Shown here piece after piece: positions 56,271 to 57,150 of a stretch of DNA of 64,000 nt. Source of the stretch: an uncultured Rhodocyclaceae bacterium (GTDB taxonomy: Bacteria; Pseudomonadota; Gammaproteobacteria; Burkholderiales; Rhodocyclaceae); assembly GCA_907163225.1 (NCBI GenBank), contig OU015322.1, positions 496,001-560,000 of the forward strand. The letters are read 5' to 3'. The position numbers and the translations under genes are program-made. Position 1 is the stretch's first letter, and every line of letters starts with the position of its first letter. A model generated the notes under the pieces. That model was not told where the DNA came from. It saw only the letters and a list, made by a program, of their open reading frames with translations, and did not search any database.

Positions 56271-56440
56271 AATTAATTTGAATTATGACCTTGGGCATAT
56301 CGCCCGGTCAATTGTTGTACCGCCTTGAGGCCGTAGCACTCTGACCAAGCTGATTCAACTCTCTTCCCGAGCGCAAGCCACATTGCCAACCATGATTTTT
56401 GGGCATACACACAACGACACTGACTGTTGCAAACCGTTAC

Positions 56441-56469
56441 TTGAAATGCGTGGGCGATGCCCCTATCTT
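56441..56469 (+). promoter_or_regulatory. Putative sigma-70 promoter of a small RNA
   Basis: TTGAAA (56441-56446), 17 bp, TATCTT (56464-56469), near ideal in spacing. Transcription would start near 56476. No protein-coding gene with a ribosome site follows before the terminator. Confidence 0.6.
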
Positions 56470-56475
56470 GGACAC

Positions 56476-56573
56476 ATGCGCTGACCAGACATCAGCCTGA
56501 CGGCCCCCACCTCCCCCTCCCCCTTGGGCCGTCCAGAAAGCCTCGTACTCCCCCCGGTACGAGGCTTTCGCCT
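56476..56573 (+). ncRNA. Predicted small RNA with two C-rich-loop hairpins
   Basis: Between a good promoter and a terminator lies about 98 nt without a credible ORF. Hairpin 1 is GACGGCCC (56499-56506) paired with GGGCCGTC (56526-56533), an 8-bp perfect stem with a 19-nt loop of CCACCTCCCCCTCCCCCTT. Hairpin 2 is the terminator with a TCCCCCCG loop. C-rich, CCTCC-containing loops can pair with Shine-Dalgarno GGAGG, as in known C-rich-loop small RNAs. This is prediction only; expression is not shown. Confidence 0.55.
56536..56572 (+). terminator. Terminator with 13-bp stem
   Basis: GAAAGCCTCGTAC/GTACGAGGCTTTC, perfect 13 bp, loop TCCCCCCG, then GCCTTTT. No protein gene precedes it on this strand within 200 bp, which is why I infer the small RNA. 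Confidence 0.8.
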
Positions 56574-56658
56574 TTTCAGGGCCATTTTTGTCCACTGAAT
56601 GGCCGCCTGGAGAATTCAGATTATTCTTCGTATGTAGCTCATCACCCGGCTGACGCCC

Positions 56659-57150
56659 ATGCCAAGAAGACGAAAAAAGAAAACTGTTCGCATCATTTAC
56701 CCATCAGCCGGCCCGCTCCCCCTGCGGCTTGCTGCTCGCTACGCCGGCGTTTTACTGGTATTCAGCGACGCCAGCGCGAAACGACATGGCGGGCTGGCCG
56801 CTGTGCTCTTTGACACTGCGGAAAGCGAAGCCGTGATCAGCACGCAGACCGTGCCGATCGTCGGCAGCAACGAACTCGAACTACAGGCAGCCCTGTTCGC
56901 ATTGACGCAGGCGGAACAACATTTTCCTGGCCGGCCGCTCGCCTTGTTTTCAGACAATCAGGATGCGGTGATCAGACTGACCCGCACCCAGGAAAAAGGC
57001 AGTACCCAAGACCCTGAGTTATCGCAGATGCTGAGCGAACGAGGCATCGCCCTCTTGCTGGATCACGCCACAATCTACTGGATCAAGGGCCACTCAAGCT
57101 GTCGCGGAAATATGCTGGCGGATTTGCATGCAGCGGAAGCCGCCAGCTAG
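56659..57150 (+). CDS. RNase H-fold protein
   Basis: Protein of 163 aa. After a basic N-terminus (MPRRRKKKTVRI) it shows the four acidic positions of RNase HI: LLVFSDASAKRHGG (Asp), SNELELQA (Glu), LFSDNQDAVIRL (Asp) and GNMLADLHAAEA (Asp). The order matches RNase H of the HI or retroviral type, but the sequence is short of the classic handle. It may cut RNA in RNA-DNA hybrids or act on RNA. It lies 85 bp past the small RNA and its start has no strong ribosome site. Confidence 0.75.
   Translation: MPRRRKKKTVRIIYPSAGPLPLRLAARYAGVLLVFSDASAKRHGGLAAVLFDTAESEAVISTQTVPIVGSNELELQAALFALTQAEQHFPGRPLALFSDNQDAVIRLTRTQEKGSTQDPELSQMLSERGIALLLDHATIYWIKGHSSCRGNMLADLHAAEAAS

Follow-up and report, generated by a model that had tools for sequence, protein, structure and literature searches.

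A probable small-RNA gene with two C-rich hairpin loops, one of a sibling family mostly confined to Dechloromonas/Azonexus

Within the 64,000-nt stretch of Rhodocyclaceae DNA that was analysed as a whole (the window), a promoter-like site is followed by two hairpins with C-rich loops and then by an RNase H-like gene, and the question raised by this locus is whether it encodes a free small RNA and, if so, what its loops would do. The locus very probably is a genuine small-RNA gene with a putative transcript and belongs to a family of siblings; the free small-RNA gene of the original prediction is strongly supported by comparison of its copies, which show a promoter at fixed distance, two covarying stems (in a 40-copy alignment) and varied neighbourhoods.

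The features of the locus are collected in Table 1. The predicted promoter-like site was present, with TTGAAA at 56441-56446, a 17-nt spacer and TATCTT at 56464-56469, and the RNA would begin near 56476. The predicted hairpin with an 8-bp stem and a 19-nt loop was also recovered at 56499-56533, where GACGGCCC (56499-56506) pairs with GGGCCGTC (56526-56533), and the predicted 13-bp terminator stem with a T-containing loop corresponds to the hairpin at 56536-56569, folded here as 14 pairs (arms 56536-56549 and 56556-56569, innermost pair T-G). That inventory was right in the promoter and two hairpins it named but missed the 5' hairpin, the upstream block of about 37 bp and the second copy in the genome. 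The 106-nt stretch folded at -43.8 kcal/mol, versus -25.3 (sd 2.96) in 200 shuffles (z -6.24), and 0 of the 200 folded as well. The T tail is short and offset, and the hairpin at 56536-56569 was absent from the list of a generic terminator scan because only 4 T occur in the 8 bases after it and the threshold was 5.

Table 1. Features of the locus in window coordinates
Feature	Position	Strand	Description and basis
Conserved upstream block	56408..56444	+	CACA..GACAC....TGTTGCAAACCGTTACTTGA; information content over 81 loci
Core promoter	56440..56469	+	CTTGAA-N14-CCCCTATCTT; also readable as sigma-70-like TTGAAA-N17-TATCTT
Small RNA gene (putative)	56475..56576	+	About 100 nt; R1 match 56475-56575, 109.4 bits (window copy itself among the model's seeds); fold
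Hairpin 1	56480..56496	+	GCTGA-CCAGACA-TCAGC; 56480-56484 pairs with 56492-56496; fold
Hairpin 2	56499..56533	+	8-bp stem, 19-nt C-rich loop at 56507-56525; fold, covariation
Terminator-like hairpin 3	56536..56576	+	CCCCCC loop, T tail 56573-56576; fold, covariation
RNase H-like gene (PF00075)	56659..57150	+	Follows 37 of 82 copies; regarded as separate from the RNA

A 118-aa ORF running across the RNA (56457-56813) was rejected because the lengths of the RNA in the 82 copies occupy all three modulo-3 classes (30, 29 and 23 copies), which upholds the earlier statement that no credible ORF is present. In most sequences of a 40-copy alignment, the conserved start of the RNA, CATGCGCTGA (56475-56484), includes a minimal ORF that reads either ATG-CGC-TGA or ATG-TGC-TGA; no ribosome-binding site for it was seen by eye, and it is probably just hairpin sequence.

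Relatives were collected with a covariance model, R1, built from the RNA alone and excluding the promoter, for which matches of at least 57 bits were counted as strong. The covariance search proposed with the original prediction was thereby carried out: at E<=0.001 there were 91 matches in 64 of 76 genomes of the genus (Dechloromonas/Azonexus), 82 of them strong, in 63 of the 76. Among these 63 genomes, 48 hold one copy, 13 hold two, one holds three and one holds five. Eight of 51 good-quality genus genomes have no R1 match, and the RNA is therefore dispensable. The nine genus matches below 57 bits were excluded from the counts; seven have no promoter, one ends at a contig edge (L238), and the last (L237, G084:C24:52595-52689, 39.5 bits) is a degenerate RNA copy with its promoter block kept (1 mismatch), possibly decaying or redirected. 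A DNA search of 60 genomes matched 31, comprising the source genome and 30 of 35 other genus members, and matched 0 of 24 genomes of other families. Most of its alignments stop near the terminator (about query positions 156-163 of 181); its query starts within the promoter block, and the upstream boundary was therefore taken from the information content of the loci found with the RNA model. The source genome itself has a second copy at C1:616861 (70.4 bits) with the same promoter and layout and a shorter loop, and a 20-bp core, TGTTGCAAACnGTTACTTGA, occurs in that genome twice within 3 mismatches, at the window locus and at C1:616861.

The three-hairpin structure was paired in 94.6% of cells over 40 copies, versus 26.5-45.1% with the partners slid, a comparison in which the tested structure, being derived from the window copy, favours the real arrangement by itself. 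Eleven of 27 pairs were changed on both sides yet still paired, versus 5.1 in shuffles, and 0 of 500 shuffles reached 11, although related sequences can beat shuffles of this kind without any structure. Two of the three stems covary: both-side changes were found in 6 of 8 pairs of hairpin 2 and in 5 of 14 pairs of hairpin 3 in the 40-copy alignment. Hairpin 1 has no covariation support in the 40 copies because it is almost invariant, with 95.5% of its cells paired.

Across all 82 copies, C makes up 70.6% of loop 2 and 87.6% of the terminator loop, and G makes up 1.6% and 0%, respectively; 63 copies have CCUCC in loop 2 and 74 have CCCC in the terminator loop. Both loops vary in length and sequence while their C-rich, nearly G-free character stays, a pattern that fits a loose binder of G tracts or a C-binding protein over one fixed target. 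Unpaired C/CU-rich loops on conserved stems, a feature of C-rich-loop regulatory sRNAs, are present. Loop 2 had been described as almost only C and CCTCC; in the window it is indeed C-rich, consisting mostly of C runs, but it is not an exact CCUCC copy.

With one to five copies per genome at scattered sites, the element might instead be a repeated DNA element (REP-like) or a mobile piece with no RNA function. The compensatory changes in the stems, the promoter at fixed distance and the low copy number speak against this, and blastn (E<=1e-5) against plasmid and phage collections gave no match; we regard the idea as barely credible. Nor is it at all probable that the functional strand is the other one, with GGA-rich loops that titrate CsrA. 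CsrA is linked to GGA motifs, and such motifs do lie in the hairpin loops of the reverse complement, but it is on the + strand that 81 of 81 copies have the promoter block at a constant spacing and that the 40-copy alignment shows a conserved GCCTTT tail, and no T run follows the stem on the - strand.

If the terminator hairpin controlled read-through into the RNase H-like gene at 56659-57150, the element would be a leader or attenuator of that gene and no trans-acting RNA would exist. The gene does lie downstream of 37 of the 82 copies, within about 85 nt in 36 of them and at 816 nt in the other (L217). No RNase H-like gene was detected behind the remaining 45; for 43 of them the available downstream DNA spans 1 kb or more, and the other two are cut short by the contig end. 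The genes downstream of the 82 copies lie on both strands, which together with those 45 copies argues against a leader of one gene, and the neighbourhoods are varied. The sibling copy at C1:616861 is without an RNase H-like gene yet keeps the promoter and the RNA. A leader function is accordingly very unlikely, and a free-standing small-RNA gene is preferred. A Pfam scan of five neighbouring proteins in the window gave a PBP-like protein, a histidine kinase, the RNase H and two RNA-ligase-like proteins.

The promoter of this small-RNA gene was assessed at loci found with the RNA model only, because loci from a promoter-pattern scan had been selected by their promoter; independence of model and promoter is partial, since most seeds came via the DNA query that included the promoter. 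The promoter block was present in 81 of 81 strong matches with upstream DNA, 49-51 nt before CATGCGCTGA and with no more than 4 mismatches; the 82nd strong match runs off its contig and was left out of this count. Information content over the 81 loci is at background upstream of the block of about 37 bp and falls after the -35. The block holds four GTTACA-like half-sites at steps of about 10 bp (consensus CACA, GRYAC, GTTGCA, GTTACT), which in the window are CACA (56408-56411), GACAC (56416-56420), GTTGCA (56426-56431) and GTTACT (56436-56441), and is probably a regulator site that overlaps the -35.

Two readings of the core promoter compete. As a sigma-70 promoter, TTGAAA-N17-TATCTT scores 9 of 12 against consensus; a promoter match alone is weak evidence here because the 2.2 kb around the locus contain 3 promoter-like sites, versus 0.6 (sd 0.8) expected from shuffles. 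Read as CTTGAA-N14-CCCCTATCTT, it shares its form with the promoter of groES (PF00166 match) in this genome, CTTGAA-N14-CCCCTATTAT, and conservation over the 81 copies is 74% and 79% for the two C's that precede TATCTT at -3 and -2, although the conserved -10 letters fit sigma-70 as well. A scan of the genome with CTTGAA-N13-16-CCCYAT found six places, versus 1 for the reversed control: the window sRNA, groES, a Lon gene (by eye), a pair of identical IS-like genes and one site that appears to be intragenic. Since only 2 of the 5 other places precede heat-shock-type genes, few sites underlie the RpoH reading. From these likenesses we infer an RpoH-type stress promoter. Of the predicted promoter, the site stood, and its sigma-70 reading may be wrong, given the match in form to the groES promoter.

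The main rival on this point keeps the same sRNA and places it under an ordinary sigma-70 promoter controlled by an OmpR/RstA-type response regulator, not under RpoH. It draws on that 9 of 12 score and on the half-sites, whose 10-bp spacing and GTTACA-like sequence resemble the OmpR site GTTACAnnnnGTTACA and the RstA site TACAtntngtTACA as quoted in an excerpt of PMC7315122. Set against it are the likeness to the groES promoter, the conserved C's before the -10 and the lack of a regulator gene that recurs near most copies; the 14 largest clusters of neighbouring genes include one response-regulator-like, one CRP-like and one LysR-like cluster (by eye), each present at just 5 of the 82 loci. 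We consider this rival a serious possibility that falls somewhat short of an even chance. Two further GTTACA-N4-GTTACA sites were seen in the source genome (L149 and L152, at C1:353028 and C1:3194237), one upstream of a 91-aa ORF and the other just after an RstB-like (by eye) histidine kinase gene; they may be chance, because the reversed control pattern gave 1.

The promoter-pattern scan returned 59 stretches, of which 7 were without the RNA by eye, namely L048 and six from unrelated organisms (L069, L078, L082, L097, L100 and L102); the RNA was present by eye in the others, a few of them cut by the end of the locus or decayed. At L048 (1232-1500) the promoter block precedes an ORF of 277 aa, TPR-like by eye, which may be another member of the regulon.

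Outside the genus, a draw from the family gave matches at E<=1e-6 in 4 of 395 genomes, from two other genera, and only one of them (L140) has both RNA and promoter. The other three were rejected: L141 has no promoter and by eye is a gene end plus terminator, and L142 and L143 have another kind of C-rich RNA, preceded by a small ORF. In a draw of 399 genomes from the order, no genome outside the genus exceeded 38.3 bits. Weak R1 matches (29.8-38.3 bits, in 13 further genera) were rejected, since no promoter was found in the 12 loci with enough upstream DNA; 13 were looked at, L123, with 23 nt upstream, was left out of the promoter verdict, as was a second match in G311, and L124 showed the promoter block only at 7 mismatches. 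By eye, several weak matches from the order resemble tRNA or plain terminators. The RNA family thus appears mostly confined to Dechloromonas/Azonexus. Other Rhodocyclaceae genera hold a promoter-like stretch with TTGTTGCA (L244-L247 at about position 1530; L142 and L143; L122, which is the same place as L245 and of the same small-ORF kind). In these loci a core resembling TTGAA-N14-CCCCATCTA lies before a tiny ORF, roughly MNMQSDSILKFLADSRRYLAR, behind which come a C-loop hairpin and a terminator, an arrangement like that of the CcaF1-CcsR locus. The small-ORF peptide was found in 6 of 199 family genomes, with a C-loop hairpin by eye at L244-L247 and not at L248 or L249.

No Rfam 15 family reaches its gathering score at the window copy, and Rfam scans of three further copies (L043, L218 and L223) returned no match within the RNA at E<=0.1. 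Subthreshold matches on the 241 bases searched around the window copy came from RF02344 ar14 (24.4 bits, gathering score 58.8; E 0.0069) and RF01066 6C (32.2 bits, gathering score 47; E 0.0086). We take ar14 to be the CcsR 'cuckoo' RNAs of Alphaproteobacteria. Like the window RNA, CcsR1-4/ar14 are homologous sibling sRNAs, with C-rich loops in the Rfam consensus, and the subthreshold match falls in the right place on the window RNA. CcsR RNAs come from an RpoHI/RpoHII promoter according to PMC8307010 and PMC10253847; the window promoter may be of that type, its form matching the genome's own groES and Lon-like promoters, a small number of sites. Unlike the CcsR locus, where the RNAs are co-transcribed behind a DUF1127 small protein gene, the window RNA directly follows its promoter and no small protein gene intervenes, and each copy of the window family has its own promoter whereas CcsR RNAs come from one precursor. 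The 6C RNA of Actinobacteria likewise combines two strong, C-looped stems with a T tail behind the second one, but belongs to another phylum, and the window RNA has an extra 5' hairpin and scores below the gathering value.

The Betaproteobacteria toxic sRNA, double-hairpin RNAs and S17 (RF02278, gathering score 50 bits) resemble the window RNA in their CU-rich unpaired stretches, several homologues per genome and an upstream motif shared by three of four, as described in PMC5688073 and PMC11722255. RF02278 nevertheless gave no match on 56400-56640 even at E<=10, while the same genome has two separate RF02278 genes (64.4 and 55.2 bits), the window element not among them. In the reverse test no R1 match at E<=10 overlaps either of these genes; L040 has none at all, and L041 has R1 matches at 587-678, 1314-1401 and 1361-1453 with its RF02278 gene at 1501-1559. 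At L223 (G024:C1 near 1410402) an RNA copy is followed within about 70 nt by an RF02278-like RNA (33 bits against the cut-off of 50) with its own promoter-like sequence, placing two kinds of C-rich sRNA in tandem. The NmsR sRNAs of Neisseria meningitidis are siblings too, and their unpaired CU-rich stretches can pair with ribosome-binding sites by complementarity (PMC5688073), but the NmsR copies are in tandem, and they are likened to the window RNA by description only. No such RNA appeared in the titles and abstract openings of the papers found on Dechloromonas sRNAs. We file the window RNA as a new family within the functional class of C-rich-loop RNAs, and not as a member of CcsR/ar14, 6C or RF02278.

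Taken jointly, the favoured reading, which we consider reasonably probable, is an sRNA of about 100 nt with three hairpins, its own promoter and terminator, RpoH-type control and loops that pair with G-rich tracts. The RNA would be non-coding and ended by its own terminator-like hairpin, and is one of the two siblings in this genome; comparison shows that the RNA, two of its stems and the promoter block have been retained jointly at many unlinked sites across the genus. An RpoH-type core promoter would be combined with an upstream regulator site of four 10-bp-spaced GTTACA-like half-sites, so that the RNA would be made under heat or related stress. The two C-rich loops would then reduce the translation of several mRNAs by pairing with G-rich tracts at or close to their ribosome-binding sites, an action reported for B11 and S17. 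In excerpts of the respective reports, the loops of B11, the 6C RNA of M. abscessus, repress a G-tract target and either loop suffices (PMC10470900), S17 represses BP2158 (PMC11722255), and pairing at ribosome-binding sites is predicted or shown for the double-hairpin RNAs (PMC5688073, PMC11722255). By analogy with CcsR, 6C and the double-hairpin RNAs, an anti-Shine-Dalgarno action of the loops is plausible. In the 64-kb window, the loop-2 duplex energy was no better at start regions than at controls, either for 44 genes with first-ATG starts (p 0.81) or for 43 genes with best-SD starts and matched controls (p 0.80), a weak test because the control sites are coding DNA and the start calls are crude. 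The predicted regulation of translation through GGAGG pairing thus has published C-rich-loop sRNAs as parallels, but complementarity at starts in the window does not add to it.

That same result would suit loops that bind a protein, for instance Rho or another C-tract binder, or else a chaperone, so that the RNA acts as a sponge or decoy with no mRNA pairing; the loops also keep composition and not sequence. Rho prefers C-rich RNA, but short loops capped by strong stems, as here, are not typical Rho sites, and the functional relatives are reported or predicted to base-pair. A protein decoy is therefore considered unlikely, and pairing with G-rich tracts remains the preferred action.

Members of Dechloromonas/Azonexus are used in work on perchlorate, denitrification and phosphorus removal, and to these bacteria the analysis adds a multi-copy sRNA family whose window copy lies below every Rfam 15 gathering score. 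Tentatively, and with more doubt than confidence, the siblings may be driven by a heat- or stress-type sigma factor and tuned by a response regulator, with loops selected only for C-richness, and would form an adjustable brake, acting on mRNAs whose ribosome-binding sites carry G tracts, that arose independently of CcsR, 6C and RF02278 and works beside the RF02278 genes. The question this opens is whether C-rich loops on RpoH-type promoters are the same stress brake evolved several times, and the 82 natural loop variants offer a ready-made test of the specificity that such pairing needs.
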